This document shows, piece after piece, positions 25,102-49,374 of a stretch of 64,000 nucleotides of DNA. Every line of letters starts with the position of its first letter. The first letter of the stretch is position 1. Position numbers and translations under genes: made by a program. Location of the stretch: the NCBI RefSeq assembly GCF_947302755.1, contig NZ_CAMYWM010000002.1, positions 1 to 64,000 on the forward strand, written 5' to 3'. Source of the stretch: an uncultured Anaerovibrio sp. (GTDB taxonomy: Bacteria; Bacillota; Negativicutes; Selenomonadales; Selenomonadaceae). The notes beneath the pieces were generated by a model. The model did no database searches. It saw nothing but the letters and a program-made list of their open reading frames with translations, and was not told the origin of the DNA.

Positions 25102-25138
25102 AGGCCTTTGCATCTGGAAGCAAATTTATCTCCAGGTA
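25102..25138 (+). other. Hairpin after mnmE
   Basis: CCTTTGCATCTGGA pairs imperfectly with TCCAGGTAAAGG. There is no T tract after it. Confidence 0.35.
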
Positions 25139-25140
25139 AA

Positions 25141-25347
25141 GGGGTGCTAAGTATCCTCCTATTAGGCGGGAGAAAAGCCCCCATAGTGGTCAGTGTCAGC
25201 TGCTCAGCTAAGACCATAGTCTTGCTTTACAGGACACTTTCGCATGGGACGTATTAACCAATAGGCTTTGCCTCTTGGATACGTCCGCAAAGCTTTTGAT
25301 TAATTCGACTACATTCAGTGGGGGTATAAATCTACCACTGAATAAGT
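25141..25347 (-). repeat. Structured repeat family C, copy 1 (inverted relative to 40 kb)
   Basis: About 205 bases. The central ~120 bases are nearly identical to the reverse complement of 40046-40254. Domains by eye: an outer CCCAT/ATGGG and AGTGTC/GACACT stem holding AGCTGCTCAGCT and AAGACCATAGTCTT; a strong hairpin GGACGTAT/ATACGTCC with an inner CCAATAGGC/GCCTCTTGG; and TTCAGTGG/CCACTGAA. Because the element is close to symmetric the sense strand is unclear. It could be a structured RNA or a non-coding mobile repeat. Confidence 0.75.
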
Positions 25348-25360
25348 ATCATTTAATGAG

Positions 25361-40033: not shown

Positions 40034-40045
40034 AATTAAATAAGA

Positions 40046-40254
40046 CTAATTCGGTGGGAGATTTATACGTCTACTGAATGCATCCGAATTAATCCAGAGC
40101 TTTGCGGACGTATCCAAGAGGCAAAGCCTATTGGTTAATACGTCCCATGGGAAAGTGTCCTGTAAAGCAAGACCATGGTCTTAGCTGAGCAGCTGACACT
40201 GACCGCTATGGGGGATTTTCTCACACCTAAGAGGAGGGAGAATTAGCACCCGTT
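40046..40254 (+). repeat. Structured repeat family C, copy 2
   Basis: Inverted relative to 25141-25347. The central ~120 bases match almost fully; the outer arms differ but keep pairing (AATTCGG/CCGAATT here, TTCAGTGG/CCACTGAA there). No T tract follows it. Confidence 0.75.
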
Positions 40255-40276
40255 GGCGTGGGGTTAAATTTAGAAA

Positions 40277-40306
40277 AAAAACTGTATACAGCAATATTGT
40301 ACACAG
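40277..40306 (-). terminator. Terminator of the small leader-peptide-like gene
   Basis: On the minus strand ACTGTGTACA pairs with TGTATACAGT around ATATTGC, followed by TTTTTTTTC. Confidence 0.7.
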
Positions 40307-40342
40307 TCCTCAATATATATAAAATTGGCAGGAAGTCAGCCA

Positions 40343-40531
40343 TTACAGCGGCTTCTTTGGCATTAAGGGATTAACAGGATTTTGGCCTCCGGCAGCTGCC
40401 AGACCGTCCAGTTCATCCCAGGATAATTCACGCTTTTGCTGACGAATATCATGGAGACGGGTCTTGAGACTGGTCTTAATCTTGCTTAAGTGGGAAAAAT
40501 CTGTATTTTGTAATTCATCCTGAATGCTCAT
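40343..40531 (-). CDS. Candidate NHLM-exported peptide precursor (double-glycine leader)
   Basis: A 62-residue peptide: a helical, charged N-terminal part (MSIQDELQNTDFSHLSKIK), then ELSWDELDGLAAAGG, which matches the usual end of Nif11/NHLP-like leaders (L-DEL--LAAAGG) cut by C39 peptidases, then a 13-residue tail QNPVNPLMPKKPL. This tail would be the exported product. It has no Cys, Ser or Thr, so lanthionine or thiazole chemistry cannot occur on it. ATG 40531 after AGGAG is chosen over 40555. The gene diverges from the export operon; they share a ~100-base promoter region. Confidence 0.7.
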   Translation of the reverse strand: MSIQDELQNTDFSHLSKIKTSLKTRLHDIRQQKRELSWDELDGLAAAGGQNPVNPLMPKKPL

Positions 40532-40630
40532 AATACTCACTCCTATCTGTTCCATGTTCTTATTCTATCATAACATACGAATAATTGGCAGGAGTATTAC
40601 AAATTTTTTTTAGCTTGGTGGAAGTTTATA

Positions 40631-41794
40631 ATGAAGATATATTTTTATTTAGGTATAGGCATTATTATCACATTAATAGTTGCTTTACTGGGTTATGGTG
40701 TTTATCTGAATACCCGTGGGGAAAATGAAATCTCCCAGCGTATGGCCAATCACCATTTGCCATTAACCGGGGTTATGGCAAAGGAAAGACAGCTATTGCC
40801 TATGGTGGAGCTGGATTTAGTCAATCTCTATTCCAATGATATGACAGATGTGGTGGCCCTGGAGGATGGCCGTATAGTTCGTTTCTTTGTGGAAAAAAAC
40901 AGCAATGTTGATGTAAATACCCCAATATTGCAGCTGATGGACGAAAATCTTCCATTGAAAATGCGTCAATCGGACAGTGATATTTTTGATGCTGAGGCCC
41001 AGCTGGTCAAGGCCAGAAATTCTTATAACAGATATCGTCAGCTGTTGGAGGTAAATGCCATTTCTGTGGAGAGATATGAGGAGGCAGAGGCTGCATACAA
41101 GGCTGCCCAGGCCCGGCTGGCCAATTATCAGGCCCAACGGGATCAGCTGATGGTACATGAATCCAGGGAGATTATCCAATCCCCAATCAAGGGTGAGGTA
41201 CTGAACCTCTATCATACAGTCGGGGCCTATGTTAAAGCGGGAACGGCTGTAGCCCTGGTGGGTGATTTTTCCCATTTAAGCTTTAACAGTACACTGGAGG
41301 ATATATTTACCAGGAGGCTATATATAGGACGCGAATTTGAACTGACGGTCAGCGACGAGACGGGAATGCACAAATCCTATGGTGCCAATTTGGCGTCGGG
41401 GAATTTAGGCGCCAATCAGGTATTTAAGGCCAAGGTGGAAAAAATAACACCGGATCTGGGAGAAGAGGCCTCCATTCGCCAGGTTATATGGCAGATTGAT
41501 AACCGGGTAGGTCTGCTGGAGCCTGGGGCCTACAGCAAGGTGCGTCTGTATTCTGATTTACCTCATAAGTGTTTGACTGTTCCCGTGGAAGCCTTTATCA
41601 ATGAATCCAGAAAGCAGGTGGCAGTGCTGGATTCAGATAATCGCCTGGCCTTTCGGCGGGTGGAAGCCGGTGTGACTGACGGTAAATATGTGGAAATAAA
41701 AAGCGGACTGGCGGCTGGTGATATAGTTATTACCTCGGATACAGAGGGCATTGATGAAGGAACAAAAATCGAAATTATAGTGGAGGATAACTAG
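40631..41794 (+). CDS. HlyD-like periplasmic adaptor, first in the NHLM locus
   Basis: A 387-residue adaptor with one N-terminal membrane segment (YLGIGIIITLIVALLGYGVYL), a lipoyl half-motif (GRIVRFFVEKNSNVDVNTPILQLMDENL), a coiled-coil hairpin (~residues 115-170), second lipoyl half (SPIKGEVLNLYHTVGAYVKAGTAVALV) and a beta-barrel. It should bridge the ABC transporter to an outer membrane channel in a diderm cell. Two bases separate it from the next gene. The ribosome site (GGTGGAAG) is weak. Confidence 0.85.
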   Translation: MKIYFYLGIGIIITLIVALLGYGVYLNTRGENEISQRMANHHLPLTGVMAKERQLLPMVELDLVNLYSNDMTDVVALEDGRIVRFFVEKNSNVDVNTPILQLMDENLPLKMRQSDSDIFDAEAQLVKARNSYNRYRQLLEVNAISVERYEEAEAAYKAAQARLANYQAQRDQLMVHESREIIQSPIKGEVLNLYHTVGAYVKAGTAVALVGDFSHLSFNSTLEDIFTRRLYIGREFELTVSDETGMHKSYGANLASGNLGANQVFKAKVEKITPDLGEEASIRQVIWQIDNRVGLLEPGAYSKVRLYSDLPHKCLTVPVEAFINESRKQVAVLDSDNRLAFRRVEAGVTDGKYVEIKSGLAAGDIVITSDTEGIDEGTKIEIIVEDN

Positions 41795-41796
41795 CC

Positions 41797-42756
41797 ATGG
41801 CAGATGGAAGCAAAATTTTTAGTCGGGCGGCCTTGGATAAATTAAGGTCACCGGACCGATTGGATATGCTTTTGCCCATAACTACCCCTATTGGTTGGAT
41901 GGGCTTGTTGGCCGTCGGCTTGCTGCTGTTGTCTGTGGTCATGTGGTCTATTTTTGGTTCCCTCACCGTCAGGGCTGATGGTGTGGGGATGATTATGGAC
42001 TATGGCGGAGTAGCTAATATTACACATGTGGCCGGAGGTAAGGTAACCAACGTCTATGTTCGTGAGGGCACTGAGGTAAAAAAGGGAGATTTGATTGCCC
42101 GCCTTGATCAGTCCGATCAATCGGCAGATACCAATATGGCCCAGTTTGAATCCCAGCTGGCGGGCAACATGCAGGATACTGCCAGTGAGGTATATAAATA
42201 TCGGTATAAATTGTACAAACAGGAAAAGTCCCGGGATGTATTCAGCGAATATGATGGTATTGTGGATGAGCTGATGGTCCGCAGGGGAAGTATTATTGAC
42301 AGCGGAAGTCCAATTTGCAGTGTCCGCCTGACCCAAAAGAATACGGACCTGATGGGGGTTATGTACGTTCCGGTGGATAAGGGAAAGCAGATTGAGACGG
42401 GACAGACAATCCAGATAGTGCCCAGCGGAGTAGATGCCCAGGAATCAGGCAGCCTGATAGGGGTAGTACGTACTGTGTCCAGCTATCCCGTATCCCTGCG
42501 GTCAATTCAGCAGCAGCTGGGTAATCCTGAATTGTCCCAACGATTGATGGCCAGTGGCCAGGGGGCAGTTATGGAGGTGCGATTTGTTTTGGTTAAGGAT
42601 GAAAAATCCCCCTCCGGTTATTTATGGACCTCGGTGGTGGGACCCCACAAGCCGGTATCGGCAGGCAGCTTTTGTACCGGTTCCATTATTATTGAACGGC
42701 GTCCTCCCTTGGAAAAAGTATTTTATAAAATCAGCCAATGGCTGCGAAATAGGTGA
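41797..42756 (+). CDS. NHLM-type secretion protein (HlyD-like)
   Basis: A 319-residue adaptor with the typical NHLM start (IFSRAALDKLRSPDRLDMLLPITTPIGW), a membrane segment (~residues 30-55), a lipoyl motif (GKVTNVYVREGTEVKKGDLIARLDQSD) and a short hairpin. This N-terminal pattern is the hallmark of the family called NHLM bacteriocin system secretion protein. Having two adaptors in one locus is notable. Confidence 0.88.
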   Translation: MADGSKIFSRAALDKLRSPDRLDMLLPITTPIGWMGLLAVGLLLLSVVMWSIFGSLTVRADGVGMIMDYGGVANITHVAGGKVTNVYVREGTEVKKGDLIARLDQSDQSADTNMAQFESQLAGNMQDTASEVYKYRYKLYKQEKSRDVFSEYDGIVDELMVRRGSIIDSGSPICSVRLTQKNTDLMGVMYVPVDKGKQIETGQTIQIVPSGVDAQESGSLIGVVRTVSSYPVSLRSIQQQLGNPELSQRLMASGQGAVMEVRFVLVKDEKSPSGYLWTSVVGPHKPVSAGSFCTGSIIIERRPPLEKVFYKISQWLRNR

Positions 42757-42761
42757 GTCAT

Positions 42762-44966
42762 ATGGCCTTTGAATTTTTGGGATATTTTAATATTGGCGGG
42801 GGAAAGCATGTTAATGTGCCGACCATACTGCAAATGGAAGCTACTGAGTGTGGTGCGGCCTGTCTGTCCATGGTGCTGGCCTATTATGGGATGTGGGTTC
42901 CATTGGAAAAGCTGCGGGCTGAATGCGGTGTAAACCGAGACGGCAGTAAAGCCAGCAATGTGCTGCGGGCGGCCCAGGCCCGTAATTGTGAGGTTCACGG
43001 TTATTGCTGGGAGGCAGAAAGCCTTCGGGAGGAGCAGGAATTTCCTCAGATCATACATTGGGAATTTAACCATTTTGTGGTGCTGGAGGGCATTGTACAG
43101 GACAAGGTTTATATAAATGATCCGGCTATGGGACGGCGCACCGTGGAGTGGGAGGATTTTTTAACCTCCTATACGGGTATTGCCCTGACTATTAAGCCGG
43201 GGCCCGGCTTTAAACCGGAGGGCCATCGATATAACGTATTCAAGGCCGTCGGGAAAAAGCTGTGGCAGGATAAATGGGGAATGTGCTTCCTGCTTTTATT
43301 GGGCTTATTTATGATTATTCCCGGCTTGGCGGCACCGGTGTTCAGCCAAATATTTTTGGATGATATTCTGACGGGTAAGCATTCTGATTGGATGACGAAT
43401 TTATGCATAGCCATTACCCTATCCTTTGTGGTATCGGCGGTATTGACCTGGCTCAGATCGGTAATCCTCACCCGTTGGCAGCAAAAGATGACCCTGGCCG
43501 ATTCATCCAGCTTTTTCTGGCATTTGCTAAGGCTGCCTATGCAGTTCTTTCATCAGCGGTATGCGGCTGAGGTGGCAGGGCGTATCAGCATGAATGAGGC
43601 GGTGGCAGGTGTTTTGTCCGGAAGTGCGGCCACGGCCGTACTGGACGCCTTTGTGGCCCTCTTCTTTTTGTTGCTTCTGCTGCAATACAATGTGCTGTTA
43701 ACCATTATTGGTATTGCATTTCTGGCCATGAATGTAGGAGTTCTTGTGTTAACCCGCCGTCATATGACGGATTTGGCCATGCGTATTCAGCAGGATGCAG
43801 GCAAGGAGTATGGAGCCAGTATAAACGGGCTGTCTATGATTGACAGCATAAAGGCCAATGGCAATGAAGGTGATTTCTTCATGAAATGGTCCGGCTATCG
43901 GGCCAAGGTATTGGCAGGAATGCAGGAAACCCAGCTGTGGATGCTGTCGGTAACCATGCTTCCTGCTCTGTTAAACGGGTTAAATGGGGCTATTATCATG
44001 ACCTTTGGCGGTTTTTCCATTATGGATGGGGCTATGACTGCCGGTATGTTTGTGGCCTTTCAGCATTTAATGAACAGCTTTCAGGCTCCGGTGAACAATC
44101 TGACGGGCTTATATACCAGCCTGCAGACCACGGAAATGCAGCTGCAGCGGCTGAACGATGTGCGCTGCTACAATATTGATACCCTTAATTATCCCGAGGA
44201 ATACGGGGATACTACCTTAACAGATGGGTCACAAATGCGTCTTTCAGGTGAATTAACCCTGGAGCATGTTACCTTTGGCTACAATCCCCTGGAGGAGCCT
44301 TTGCTTAAAGATTTTAATCTTCACGTAAAGCCTGGTCATTGGGTGGCCATAGTAGGAGCATCAGGCAGTGGTAAATCCACTGTGGCCAAGCTCATTACCG
44401 GTTTATATGGGGAGTGGGATGGCCAGGTGCTGTTTGATGGCAAACCCCGCCGTCAGCTTTCACGGAAGGTAATCACCTCCTCCCTGGCGGCAGTTGATCA
44501 GGATGTTTTCCAGGTCACCGGCACTGTAGGCCAAAATATTGGTCTATTCGATGATTCACTGCGCCAGATTGACATTATTAACGCTGCCAGGGATGCATGT
44601 ATCCACGATGATATAATTCAGCTGGAGGGTGGCTATGAGGCCCAGGTTGACGAGGGTGGCCTGAATTTCAGCGGTGGTCAGCGTCAGCGGATGGAGATTG
44701 CCCGGGCCCTGGCTGTAAATCCTTCTCTTCTCGTTTTGGATGAGGCCACCAGTGCCCTGGATCCGGTTACGGAAGAACAGGTTCTGAGTAATATCCGGCA
44801 TCGGGGATGTTCCTGTGTGATTATTGCCCACAGATTGTCCACCATTCGGGATGCTGATGAAATACTGGTATTGGATAAGGGCCATGTGGTGGAGCGTGGA
44901 CGCCACCGGGATATGATAAAGCATGATGGGCCTTATCGCCGATTGATTAAAGAACGAAGTTCATAA
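42762..44966 (+). CDS. NHLM peptidase-containing ABC exporter (C39)
   Basis: About 734 residues in three parts: C39 cysteine peptidase at the N-terminus (catalytic Cys in QMEATECGAACLSMVLAYYG, His in NHFVVLEG, Asp in INDPAMG), a six-helix membrane domain (~residues 165-440), and an ABC ATPase (GASGSGKST; FSGGQRQRMEIARAL; LLVLDEATSALD). It cuts leaders after double glycine and exports the rest. ATG 42762 or GTG 42753 are both possible; they overlap the previous stop. Confidence 0.93.
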   Translation: MAFEFLGYFNIGGGKHVNVPTILQMEATECGAACLSMVLAYYGMWVPLEKLRAECGVNRDGSKASNVLRAAQARNCEVHGYCWEAESLREEQEFPQIIHWEFNHFVVLEGIVQDKVYINDPAMGRRTVEWEDFLTSYTGIALTIKPGPGFKPEGHRYNVFKAVGKKLWQDKWGMCFLLLLGLFMIIPGLAAPVFSQIFLDDILTGKHSDWMTNLCIAITLSFVVSAVLTWLRSVILTRWQQKMTLADSSSFFWHLLRLPMQFFHQRYAAEVAGRISMNEAVAGVLSGSAATAVLDAFVALFFLLLLLQYNVLLTIIGIAFLAMNVGVLVLTRRHMTDLAMRIQQDAGKEYGASINGLSMIDSIKANGNEGDFFMKWSGYRAKVLAGMQETQLWMLSVTMLPALLNGLNGAIIMTFGGFSIMDGAMTAGMFVAFQHLMNSFQAPVNNLTGLYTSLQTTEMQLQRLNDVRCYNIDTLNYPEEYGDTTLTDGSQMRLSGELTLEHVTFGYNPLEEPLLKDFNLHVKPGHWVAIVGASGSGKSTVAKLITGLYGEWDGQVLFDGKPRRQLSRKVITSSLAAVDQDVFQVTGTVGQNIGLFDDSLRQIDIINAARDACIHDDIIQLEGGYEAQVDEGGLNFSGGQRQRMEIARALAVNPSLLVLDEATSALDPVTEEQVLSNIRHRGCSCVIIAHRLSTIRDADEILVLDKGHVVERGRHRDMIKHDGPYRRLIKERSS

Positions 44967-44989
44967 TTATTTTAGTGAGTTGTGATGGT

Positions 44990-47701
44990 ATGGAATTACA
45001 AGCGGGAAAGCGCTGGCGAATGACAAATGAAGAAGAATTTTTGCTGCTGGAAACAGGACAGGTGGAGGTTTATGCTGTTACTGCCCACCAGAGCTCATAT
45101 CGCCAGGAATATCTTTTTTCATTAAGCCCGGGAGATAGTGTATTTCCGGCCTTGGATGAATTTGGGGAGGTCAATATACTCCTGTATGGCTTGGAGGATT
45201 GCCGGCTCAGGGCAATTAAATTTACGGATATATCAGCTGACGAATTGCAGCATTGTCTCCAGGGCTGGTTTTTGAAGCTGGGCAGCATTAAATGGATAAA
45301 GCGATTGGCCGATATGGGTGACAATACGCTGCTGCAGTGGTCCGGGCCGGAGATGCTGGAGGGCTGTGCAGGCAGCAGCAGGGACCTGTATAGCCATTTT
45401 AAAGAAAATCAGGGTATTTTTGCCATGCTCCAGGGCATCCGTTTTTTGTCTGCCGACAGGCGGCTGGAACGGCGGCATCATATTATCGACCAGCAGAAGA
45501 AGCGTCTGATAGATGATGCAATCAACAATCTGTTAGGCGAGGATGAAATATTTTACGAAGAGCACAGTACTGAACAGCGGGGCAAGAGTCTGGAGGAAGC
45601 CAGCTTTATCATTCGTCTGATAGAAAAGGCCCTGTCAATGGGTGAGGCCGATATAGGACTGTCCCCGGAAATTGTCAAAAAATTGGACAAAATCCATCTC
45701 CTTCGCCGGGTGGCCCAAAAGGCCAATATTCAGCTGCGGCTGGTGAAGCTGGAGCGGGGGTGGTATACAAAGGATTGTGGCCCTATGATCGGTTATTTTG
45801 GGGAGAAAAAGGAAATGGCTGCACTTATTCCCAAGACCCCCAGTACCTATGTTATGATAACCAGGAGAGAGCCGGAGGGGATACCGGTCACCGGTGAACT
45901 GGCCGATGAGCTGGATGTGGATGCCTTCCTGTGTTATGCCGGTTTTCCGCGCCGTAAGCTGTCCATAAAGGATTTGATCAGGTTTATGTTTCGTCAGTGC
46001 TGGCAAATCGATTATCGGACTATATTGCTGGTGAGCTTCATTGCGGGACTTATTCCCCTGGTGAGTCCTATCATTACGGAAACCATTTTTCAAAATATCA
46101 TTCCTATAATGGATCGGAAGGGACTGGTATCCGTTACCCAGGTTATTATGGTTACCAGCTTTACCATGGCCGCCCTCAGTATGATACGGATGGTGGCGGT
46201 AATGCGTATAAGCACCCGATTGGATATGTCAGTGGAGGCAGCTCTCTGGGGCAGGCTGCTGACCTTGCCGGAAAAATTTTTCCGTCAGTTTACCTCCGGT
46301 GAATTAGCCAGCCGTATGCGTGGCATTGAAATGGTAAAGGAGGTGGTCAGCGGTAATTTTGTTTCCACGGTATTTAACACGGTATTTTCCTTCTGGAGTC
46401 TGTTTCTGATGTGCTGGTACAGCCTTAAGCTGACGGCTGTGGCTGTGGCTGTATGGGCTGTATGGTTCATGATAACGGCCATGATTTACGGGCGGGTATT
46501 GTTCTTTCAACGTAAATTAATCGCAGCCAATAATGCTGAGGCAGGCCTGGTGCAGCAGCTATTTACCGGTCTGGCCAAATTTAGAGTCCATGGAGCGGAG
46601 GAACAGGCCTTTCATCTATGGAGTAAGGTTTTTGGGGAAACCTGGAGGTGGAATCTGGCCCTGAGATGGCAAAACAACTATAATACAATTATAGGAGCAG
46701 CCCAGCCCTTTATTTTGACTATGGTGCTGTATTATATGGCAGTAAATGGCCTCCAGGAGCCCCTGAGGGAGGGGACGGTGGCCTCCACGGCTGCCGGAGG
46801 CATGGGATATGCCCAGTTTCTGGCCTTTGAGGCGGCCTTTACCGCATTTAACGCCTCCTTAAAGGCGTTTGTACCCTTGATTGGTTCCTGTTTTGCTATT
46901 CAGCCCCATATAGAAAATCTTCGTCCCATATTGAATGAGATTCCGGAAACCACCGGTGACAAGGTGGAGGCTGAACCATTATCCGGTGCCATAGAGGTGA
47001 GTCATTTGACCTTTGCCTATGGCGAGGATAAGAAGGATGTCCTCCATGATATAACCTTTCAAATTGCGGCAGGGGAAAATGTGGCCATAGTGGGCCATTC
47101 CGGTTGTGGTAAATCAACACTGGTACGATTGCTATTGGGCTTTGAGCAGCCTAAAAGCGGTGCCATATATTATGACGGTCAGTCCCTGGCGGAATTATCA
47201 CCACCCTCTGTACGGTCGCAAATGGGGGTGGTATTGCAAAATGGCCAGCTGATGACCGGCGATATATTTACCAATATTGTGGGACAGACTGCCCTTACCC
47301 AGGATGATGCCTGGGTGGCGGCAGAAGCAGCGGGGATTGCCGATGATATCCGGGCCATGCCCATGGGTATGCAGACAGTCATTAGTGAAGGCTCCAACAA
47401 TATTTCCGGGGGACAGCGTCAACGGATAATGATTGCCAGAGCCCTGGCGGCCAAGCCGGCTATTATTATTTTTGATGAAGCTACCAGTGCACTGGATAAT
47501 CGGACCCAGGCCATTGTAACCAACAGCCTGAATAAATTGAAAACCACCAGGCTGGTAATCGCCCATCGGTTGTCCACCATAAGGGGCTGTGATCGGATTT
47601 TGGTCATGGACAAGGGATATTTGGTGGAAAGCGGAACATATGAGGAATTGTTGGCCAGGGATGGAATATTTGCCAAACTGGTAAAGCGTCAGGTAGCATA
47701 G
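44990..47701 (+). CDS. NHLM second ABC exporter with long N-terminal domain
   Basis: About 903 residues. Residues 1-~340 are not a peptidase; the opening part (LETGQVEVYAV ... GDSVFPALDEFGEVNILLYG) looks like a cyclic-nucleotide-binding-type beta-roll, as in NHLM partner transporters. Then a six-helix membrane domain (~345-640) and an ABC ATPase (GHSGCGKSTLV; ISGGQRQRIMIARAL; IIIFDEATSALD). It probably pairs with the C39 transporter. ATG 44990 is preferred over GTG 44975. Confidence 0.9.
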   Translation: MELQAGKRWRMTNEEEFLLLETGQVEVYAVTAHQSSYRQEYLFSLSPGDSVFPALDEFGEVNILLYGLEDCRLRAIKFTDISADELQHCLQGWFLKLGSIKWIKRLADMGDNTLLQWSGPEMLEGCAGSSRDLYSHFKENQGIFAMLQGIRFLSADRRLERRHHIIDQQKKRLIDDAINNLLGEDEIFYEEHSTEQRGKSLEEASFIIRLIEKALSMGEADIGLSPEIVKKLDKIHLLRRVAQKANIQLRLVKLERGWYTKDCGPMIGYFGEKKEMAALIPKTPSTYVMITRREPEGIPVTGELADELDVDAFLCYAGFPRRKLSIKDLIRFMFRQCWQIDYRTILLVSFIAGLIPLVSPIITETIFQNIIPIMDRKGLVSVTQVIMVTSFTMAALSMIRMVAVMRISTRLDMSVEAALWGRLLTLPEKFFRQFTSGELASRMRGIEMVKEVVSGNFVSTVFNTVFSFWSLFLMCWYSLKLTAVAVAVWAVWFMITAMIYGRVLFFQRKLIAANNAEAGLVQQLFTGLAKFRVHGAEEQAFHLWSKVFGETWRWNLALRWQNNYNTIIGAAQPFILTMVLYYMAVNGLQEPLREGTVASTAAGGMGYAQFLAFEAAFTAFNASLKAFVPLIGSCFAIQPHIENLRPILNEIPETTGDKVEAEPLSGAIEVSHLTFAYGEDKKDVLHDITFQIAAGENVAIVGHSGCGKSTLVRLLLGFEQPKSGAIYYDGQSLAELSPPSVRSQMGVVLQNGQLMTGDIFTNIVGQTALTQDDAWVAAEAAGIADDIRAMPMGMQTVISEGSNNISGGQRQRIMIARALAAKPAIIIFDEATSALDNRTQAIVTNSLNKLKTTRLVIAHRLSTIRGCDRILVMDKGYLVESGTYEELLARDGIFAKLVKRQVA

Positions 47702-47713
47702 GAGAAGGAAAGT

Positions 47714-48259
47714 ATGGATGAACAGGATTGGAATGGTATAGCCCGAAAGGCCATACATGATGATGCAGCTTTTGATGAGCTGTATGAGCATTTTTTTTCC
47801 AAAATATACAATTTAATCTACGCCCGGGTAAAGAATGCCTCTATTGCCGATGATATTGTCAGCGATGTTTTTGAGAAAATGGTGGGACATCTGGACAGCT
47901 TTGACAGCAGTAAGGCCTCCTTTGCCACCTGGTTAAGCCGTATAGCCATGCGTACCCTGACCGATTATTATCGTTGGCAAAGCCATCGGCAAAATGTGGA
48001 ATGGGATGATGTGTTCTCTCCCAAGGTAGATGATAAGGAGGTTCCGGATGGTCATTTGCTGGAGCAGGATGGGAAAAGGGAGCTGTTGCTGGCGTTGGGA
48101 AAATTATCCCAACGGGAGCAGGAAATTATTGAATTAAAATTTTGGGGCGATATGAATAATAGGGAAATTGCTGATACACTTGGTATATCCTCGGCCAATG
48201 TGGGGGTAATTCTCTTTCGGGCCATGGGGACCCTGCGAAAAATTCTGGGACGGGATTAA
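47714..48259 (+). CDS. ECF-type RNA polymerase sigma factor
   Basis: A 181-residue sigma factor with region 2 (FDELYEHFFSKIYNLIYARVKNASIADDIVSDVFEKM) and region 4 helix-turn-helix (LSQREQEIIELKFWGDMNNREIADTLGISSANVGVILFRAM). It is 12 bases after the exporter and the last gene of the operon, so it may drive this locus or the small genes around it. No anti-sigma gene is recognisable nearby. A terminator overlaps its stop codon. Confidence 0.9.
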   Translation: MDEQDWNGIARKAIHDDAAFDELYEHFFSKIYNLIYARVKNASIADDIVSDVFEKMVGHLDSFDSSKASFATWLSRIAMRTLTDYYRWQSHRQNVEWDDVFSPKVDDKEVPDGHLLEQDGKRELLLALGKLSQREQEIIELKFWGDMNNREIADTLGISSANVGVILFRAMGTLRKILGRD

Positions 48260-48396: not shown

Positions 48397-48431
48397 CTGG
48401 CCTGCGCAGCCAGATTTTTTTTATTTTTTTG
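48397..48431 (+). terminator. Hairpin with long T tract
   Basis: CTGGC pairs with GCCAG, followed by ATTTTTTTTATTTTTTT, ~75 bases before the 57-residue gene. Confidence 0.65.
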
Positions 48432-48504
48432 TAATGGATTGGCCGGACAGTCGTATATAAGGTTGTAAGACAGTTAATCAGGCATAGGAAAGGAGTCGGT
48501 GGAT

Positions 48505-48678
48505 ATGCAGGAATTGACTAAGGTAATTATCAGTGTCCTTAAAAGGTTTGATACGACAAAATTTCAGGGTGCTAATCGCGTGGAGGCGGTAAATACCATC
48601 CTGGAAGACCAGGGAATTTGGGTAAATCGGGATGATATCAGCATAGCATTGAAGCATTTTACAGAGCTGGCCAATTAG
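48505..48678 (+). CDS. Small protein of 57 residues, function unknown
   Basis: Reads MQELTKVIISVLKRFDTT, then KFQGANRVEAVNTILEDQGI and WVNRDDISIALKHFTELAN. It has a good ribosome site (GGAAAGGAG) and a balanced, helical composition. It is not in the ORF track as a plus-strand entry; the minus ORF 48478-48696 overlaps it and is a shadow. It could be a regulator or a NHLM-related small protein; no leader motif is visible. Confidence 0.55.
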   Translation: MQELTKVIISVLKRFDTTKFQGANRVEAVNTILEDQGIWVNRDDISIALKHFTELAN

Positions 48679-48752: not shown

Positions 48753-48911
48753 ATGGCAATGGAAAAAATGATGGAAGAACAGGAATTGAAGGAGTCATCC
48801 GCAGCAAAAACCGTGGAGCTTATGATTCCGATGATTAAAAAGGGCCTTGCCAGCTATAACAGGGGTAAGGATATGAAGAATAAGAAACCCTTGGATGGCA
48901 GGGTAGCATAA
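48753..48911 (+). CDS. Small protein of 52 residues, function unknown
   Basis: MAMEKMMEEQELKESSAAKT, then VELMIPMIKKGLASYNRGKD, then MKNKKPLDGRVA. ATG 48753 after GGAAAGGGGC is a natural start; the track's TTG 48729 lies before the ribosome site. Very Met/Lys/Glu-rich. Its KKPL near the C-terminus resembles the end of the leader-like peptide (PKKPL), which may be chance. It has no double-glycine site. Confidence 0.5.
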   Translation: MAMEKMMEEQELKESSAAKTVELMIPMIKKGLASYNRGKDMKNKKPLDGRVA

Positions 48912-49002: not shown

Positions 49003-49374
49003 ATGAGATTCGTAAACGTATTGAAGGTATTCCTGGTAGCAGTAGTTATGGCTGTTGGTTTTCAGGGGACGGCCTTGGCCGGTAGTCAGGATTTTAGCCT
49101 GATTAATGGTACTGGCAGGACCATATCCTATATTTATCTGAGCCCAACCCATGAATCTAACTGGATTTATCAGGATGAGCTTGGTCCTAATCACGTTCTT
49201 GCTCCAGGTCAGGATATTTTTATCGGCTTTGACCCACGGGATGGGGTACAGTATTGGGATGTTAAGGTAGTTTATGATAACGGAGCTGAGGATTATTGGT
49301 ACGGTTTGGACCTGTATCGGGTTTACTCGTTAACCATTCGTCCTGGCGGAGCTTCCAGTATTGAAATGATTTAA
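49003..49374 (+). CDS. Secreted small beta-rich protein
   Basis: A 123-residue protein with a clear signal peptide (cleavage after ALA in GTALAGSQD). The mature ~97 residues (LINGTGRTISYIYLSPTHESNW ... YYGLDLYRVYSLTIRPGG) look like a small beta-sandwich; the family is unclear to me. The start has AAGGAGGT. It has its own terminator and lies at the right end of the NHLM-linked cluster. Confidence 0.75.
   Translation: MRFVNVLKVFLVAVVMAVGFQGTALAGSQDFSLINGTGRTISYIYLSPTHESNWIYQDELGPNHVLAPGQDIFIGFDPRDGVQYWDVKVVYDNGAEDYWYGLDLYRVYSLTIRPGGASSIEMI

Follow-up and report, generated by a model that had tools for sequence, protein, structure and literature searches.

A small peptide linked to an ECF sigma factor carries a mimic of C39 cargo leaders beside an NHLM exporter operon of Anaerovibrio

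The question raised by this locus is whether a very short peptide gene that faces a peptide export operon encodes an exported product or an intracellular partner of the export system. The window, by which we mean the whole analyzed stretch of 64,000 nucleotides from an uncultured Anaerovibrio sp., contains at positions 40343-40531 of its minus strand an open reading frame of 62 residues with the translation MSIQDELQNTDFSHLSKIKTSLKTRLHDIRQQKRELSWDELDGLAAAGGQNPVNPLMPKKPL, which we named PEP (sigma-linked leader-mimic peptide, P0001). The first-pass annotation had described it as a divergent peptide gene with a double-glycine leader, from which a C39 peptidase would release a tail of 13 residues. 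PEP is a real gene: it shows codon-position bias, has a ribosome-binding site, and is represented by homologues in 102 of the 189 genomes from the organism's family. The translation given for it earlier was exact. The base changes at codon positions 1/2/3 between PEP and three congeners amount to 12/3/30 (against L003), 12/3/31 and 12/9/27, and the sequence GGAG (40540-40543, minus strand) is located 9-12 nt before the ATG. The top homologues in other species have E=1e-30, and the loci from the same genus are labelled Anaerovibrio lipolyticus or Anaerovibrio spp. Past the PEP stop codon, a hairpin and a run of T (40275-40309, minus strand), of which the hairpin is visible in the alignment, form a likely terminator. 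When 37 members were searched against Pfam and NCBIfam (E<=1), no model for the family was found, and no member resembled nitrile hydratase alpha or a Nif11 leader; the sequence matches in Pfam, NCBIfam and the PDB were weak and unrelated (for example, K-box). Likewise, an Rfam search of the PEP locus gave no match at the gathering thresholds and chance matches only below them. A separate feature near PEP is a structured repeat of some 237 bp (40036-40272, plus strand; a further copy at 25122-25356, minus strand), which is dispersed over the genome in 44 full or partial matches of up to 91% identity and has a folding energy z-score of −3.8 and a counterpart of 79% identity in a sister genome (L035). 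This repeat has no Rfam family and is possibly a mobile non-coding element.

The intergenic region that PEP had been said to share with an export operon is indeed common to both, the two divergent start codons being 99 bp apart. On the plus strand, the operon starts with an RND/MFP-type periplasmic adaptor of 387 residues (40631-41794; TIGR01730, E=2.8e-48), which is followed by an NHLM HlyD adaptor of 319 residues (41797-42756; TIGR03794, 235 bits against a cut-off of 156), the peptidase/permease/ATPase ABC1 (42753-44966; TIGR03796, 958 bits), the permease/ATPase ABC2 (44975-47701; TIGR03797, 771 bits) and an ECF sigma factor (47714-48259). All three NHLM exporter models, TIGR03794, TIGR03796 and TIGR03797, are thus matched above their curated cut-offs. 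The C39 domain of ABC1 (PF03412; residues 22-150, Cys33) looks active, because the LahT C39 structure 6mpz is a close match (E=1.8e-45) in which the catalytic Cys lines up. The best equivalog for the sigma factor is TIGR02952 (BldN family), which it matches below the cut-off, and its relatives in the PDB include sigma-BldN (6dxo). This NHLM operon encodes two adaptors (40631-42756), one of the RND-type MFP kind and one short HlyD protein. Many relatives (L070, L101) also have TolC-like genes inside the operon; none was seen beside the operon of the window. Homologues of PEP next to the same exporter, which had been suggested as something to look for in other Negativicutes, were found in many other Selenomonadaceae.

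Published C39 leaders follow the register L(-12)xxxE(-8)L(-7)xx[VL](-4)xG(-2)G(-1), with a hydrophobic residue at −4 (PMC6959990; PMC6363468), and the cleavage sites reported for C39 peptidases have GG, GA or GS (PMC10885120), to which the narrow C39 cleft limits the scissile residues (PMC6959990). Placed in this register, PEP reads L36-S-W-D-E40-L41-D-G-L44-A45-A46-A47-G48-G49, with the docking residues L-12, E-8, L-7 and hydrophobic -4 present as L36, E40, L41 and L44. Judged by its sequence, the C-terminal half of PEP copies the helix with which cargo leaders dock on C39. This leader mimic, L(-12)SWDE(-8)L(-7)DGL(-4)AAA/G (residues 36-48; 40388-40426, minus strand; the slash follows position −1), belongs to the best-conserved half of PEP, and A46, A47 and G48 are invariant across the 37 aligned members. 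The scissile positions −2/−1 are occupied by Ala-Ala (residues 46-47; 40391-40396, minus strand) in all 44 scorable homologues from the 45 tallied loci that combine PEP with sigma and ABC1 (a few rows are shifted by one in other columns), so that none has the GG, GA or GS of C39 cargo precursors; the cargo genes, in contrast, have GG. The Gly-Gly that was earlier read as the cleavage site (residues 48-49; 40385-40390, minus strand) is at +1/+2, two residues beyond the register. Its second Gly is not conserved, the literal GG being confined to the Anaerovibrio/Selenomonas branch and the residue after G48 being mostly N, T or S outside it. Since Ala-Ala is found at −2/−1 in every homologue, and since the GG is both out of register and unconserved, neither a C39 double-glycine site at this GG nor the release of QNPVNPLMPKKPL by cleavage there is supported; a lack of conservation of the motif had itself been named in advance as grounds for abandoning that reading.

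The tail QNPVNPLMPKKPL (40346-40384, minus strand) is rich in Pro and Lys and, as described before, devoid of Cys, Ser and Thr in the window, but homologue L014 has all three. Tails of 10-20 residues are found in 42 of 44 homologues, with 14% Pro, a mean net charge of +1.25 and a variable sequence, and their length differs even inside one clade. In two genomes of another Negativicutes family (L202 and L213), the PEP relative has 124 residues with a zinc ribbon in place of the tail, and its start overlaps the sigma stop, which speaks against the tail being exported as a product. We considered whether the L202 homologue might be a DUF5667 protein (PF18915), a family that we take to be anti-sigma-associated, but rejected the idea: the homologue had no Pfam match, and those DUF5667 proteins that were found among Bacillota were exported and had no matching sigma gene adjoining them.

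An ECF-type promoter, TGTAAT-N16-CGTAT (40575-40601, minus strand), precedes PEP in the window, and its clade-1 form TGTAAY-N16-CGTAT is conserved 40-50 nt before the PEP start in nearly all clade-1 loci. Two further clades have the motifs TAACAC-N-GGATATAA and TGTCAG-N-GCATATA. Within 2.3 Mb of locus sequence, the three clade-specific motifs have 70, 44 and 23 distinct sites, whereas a single Markov shuffle contained 1, 0 and 1. From these 137 sites, 60 are located before PEP and 42 before GG-type cargo genes; because the motifs were initially spotted by eye in front of PEP, the PEP counts are partly circular, unlike the cargo and whole-genome counts. The strict form TGTAAT-N16-CGTAT is found three times in the 2.66-Mb genome of the window, compared to two for the reversed control, and two of the three copies flank the exporter operon, one before PEP and the other after the sigma gene (48430-48456, plus strand). 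In sister Anaerovibrio, the motif of this second promoter directly precedes a gene for a secreted protein of 123 residues, a putative regulon member there (just upstream in L032, L034, L037 and L038), the counterpart of which is located at 49003-49374 (plus strand) of the window. Beyond the second promoter, the window also has two small open reading frames (48505-48678 and 48753-48911, plus strand), of which one has a weak match of 30% in L036 and the other none. The form of the motifs, their linkage to the locus and their clade specificity lead us to infer that the ECF sigma factor of the locus drives these promoters.

When genes were picked by promoter alone, without selection on the cleavage motif, all 43 recognised genes with the N-terminal 'DFS' block were of the AA-type and 40 non-DFS genes were of the GG-type; ten further AA-type genes are PEP genes whose start was picked wrongly or whose DFS block is a variant, and the motif was absent from 19 genes. 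Cargo-like genes in PEP loci keep VAGG and are separate genes from PEP, which sometimes sits among them. At L046 (15505-16884), several cargo genes in tandem combine a VAGG leader with an Asn/Gln-rich 'ISGQNDNQG' core, and some have an ECF-type promoter of their own, and contigs C84 (L112) and C62 (L113) of the window genome encode canonical VAGG-type small peptides that are likely real cargo of the exporter. The third strict ECF-type site of the genome, on contig C132 (L201, L209), precedes an open reading frame of 62 residues, MGNELYNEAVKPVEVAAAGNAG..., in which AAAG is present and the docking leucines are absent.

PEP is also linked to the sigma gene itself. Of 36 non-redundant PEP loci flanked by 6 kb or more, 33 also contain the sigma gene: it is within 6 kb of PEP in 23 of these, and in 10, as in the window, it stands at the far end of the exporter operon. 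Over a set of 88 loci, the sigma gene is within 300 nt of PEP in 39, mostly directly upstream on the same strand. Several PEP-sigma pairs (L150, L172, L176, L179 and L187) have no exporter gene within the flanking stretch examined. Across 45 loci the distances of PEP and sigma are correlated (r=0.86; partial correlation 0.75 given ABC1), compared to a partial correlation of 0.20 between PEP and ABC1 given sigma. The N-terminal block (residues 1-32, DFSxxSKxKxSL; 40436-40531, minus strand) is the proposed sigma-binding part. Its distances follow those of sigma (r 0.77), the partial correlations for a 25-residue block being 0.76 with sigma and −0.03 with C39, a co-divergence that fits sigma binding; linked inheritance alone could produce the same pattern. 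The AF2 model predicts helices at residues 3-9, 13-32 and 38-47, with a mean pLDDT of 72.7 and a low pTM of 0.34. No anti-sigma domain was found in PEP in Pfam or NCBIfam, or by sequence in the PDB, which lowers the likelihood of an anti-sigma role but does not exclude it, because small class II domains diverge strongly. Long open frames of 181-285 residues that might have been natural sigma-PEP fusions were attributed to upstream read-through instead.

The tie of a leader-type peptide gene to an NHLM/C39 exporter, and its dissimilarity to an ordinary bacteriocin, thus hold as first described, and the question is what such a peptide does. An unlikely but serious answer is that PEP is exported after all, as a pheromone or a small bacteriocin-like peptide that would be cut by C39 at a non-canonical AA/G, AAG/ or GG to give a Pro/Lys-rich signal of 10-20 residues, acting via sigma or another receptor. 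This would agree with the fit of the leader half to the docking consensus, with a short and variable tail, with cargo promoters that also drive PEP, with the occasional position of PEP among cargo genes, and with the GG that does occur in the branch of the window. It is at odds with Ala at both −2 and −1 in all homologues next to cargo with GG, with a literal GG that is out of register and unconserved, and with tails that differ in length within a clade and give way to a zinc ribbon in L202.

We regard it as improbable that PEP acts on the exporter only, as an uncleavable mimic that inhibits, primes or chaperones C39/ABC1, with shared transcription accounting for the link to sigma. The conservation of PEP is indeed highest in the leader-mimic half, and PEP is made together with cargo, but several PEP-sigma pairs lack an exporter within the flanking stretch examined, the N-terminal block tracks sigma and not C39, and PEP and sigma overlap in L202 and L213. 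Least of all do we expect PEP to be a positive partner of sigma, a co-sigma or stabiliser with no inhibitory function. The linkage and co-divergence data would fit such a role too, and two-subunit sigma factors exist in B. subtilis according to a reference within PMC8103513; however, the leader mimic would be left unexplained, and a small, sigma-dependent product is more typical of a feedback inhibitor.

The explanation that we consider best, at about even confidence, is that PEP is a sigma-dependent intracellular regulator, likely a minimal anti-sigma factor of about 60 residues with an uncleavable leader mimic, and not an exported product. The ECF sigma factor of the same locus would direct the transcription of PEP, as the motif and the linkage suggest, and the N-terminal 'DFS' helices of PEP would most likely bind this sigma factor, which would make PEP a negative-feedback element. 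Because the docking residues are kept while Ala-Ala replaces Gly-Gly at −2/−1, the leader mimic should dock on the exporter peptidase without efficient cutting. In the simplest model, one of load sensing, free peptidase domains of the exporter would hold PEP, so that sigma is active and the cargo genes are on; once cargo leaders fill the C39 domains, PEP would be released and capture sigma, and the regulon would be off. The more specific proposal, that PEP is a bipartite anti-sigma factor and that competition between cargo and mimic for C39 reports the secretion load to the ECF sigma factor, is put forward as tentative. Counting against the regulator model, the GG motif has been reported to be needed for binding as well as cleavage (PMC7018657), and an AA mimic might therefore dock weakly; that PEP is driven by the promoters of the cargo also fits a cargo role.

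The exporter of this locus is of a known kind, since its operon matches the same three models as those described for NHLM/NHLP export (Haft 2010, PMC2887384). PEP shares the E-L-S/T...L..V/L block before the scissile site with the NHLP/Nif11 precursors of that system, but differs from them in being unlike nitrile hydratase or Nif11, in having no Gly-Gly at −2/−1 and in its tie to an ECF sigma factor; the main text of PMC2887384 does not use that term. With the leaders of CtA and LahA, substrates of C39 (PCAT/AMS) proteins (PMC6959990, PMC6363468), it shares L-12, E-8, L-7 and V/L-4 in a predicted helix, and unlike them it has an invariant Ala-Ala instead of GG, GA or GS and a long N-terminal DFS helix. 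A precedent for small anti-sigma factors is CnrY, which binds an ECF sigma factor with two helices (PMC7406223), and like the small class II anti-sigma factors CnrY and NepR (PMC7406223, PMC8103513), PEP is a very small helical partner that is genetically coupled to an ECF sigma factor. No sequence similarity between them was found, PEP adds the leader mimic, and the likeness does not amount to family membership. To our knowledge, CnrY and NepR have no such mimic. The sigma factor of the locus matches the sigma-BldN chain 6dxo_A (E=2.4e-11) from the complex with RsbN (ASDIII; PDB 6dxo), which is membrane-anchored (PMC8103513), and PEP has no detectable similarity to PDB chains. The closest parallel in logic is with the flagellar system. 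FlgM is an anti-sigma factor of sigma28 that interacts with the export machine and is exported by the type III apparatus, which couples secretion to sigma activity. The same logic is proposed for PEP, with the difference that PEP is predicted to be neither cut nor exported. A non-exhaustive literature search turned up neither an anti-sigma factor that bears a C39 leader nor an ECF sigma factor linked to NHLM in Selenomonadaceae, and as far as this search goes the partnership of leader mimic and sigma factor is undescribed.

C39 exporters move bacteriocins and signals in many bacteria, and little is understood of the way in which output is adjusted to export capacity; a conserved sigma-linked leader mimic with alanines in place of the scissile glycines would, if true, be a direct link between exporter occupancy and transcription. 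More than half of the genomes sampled from a dominant rumen family encode a member of the PEP family, and the clade-specific promoters provide a practical handle for finding the true cargo of these exporters, much of which is encoded away from the exporter genes.
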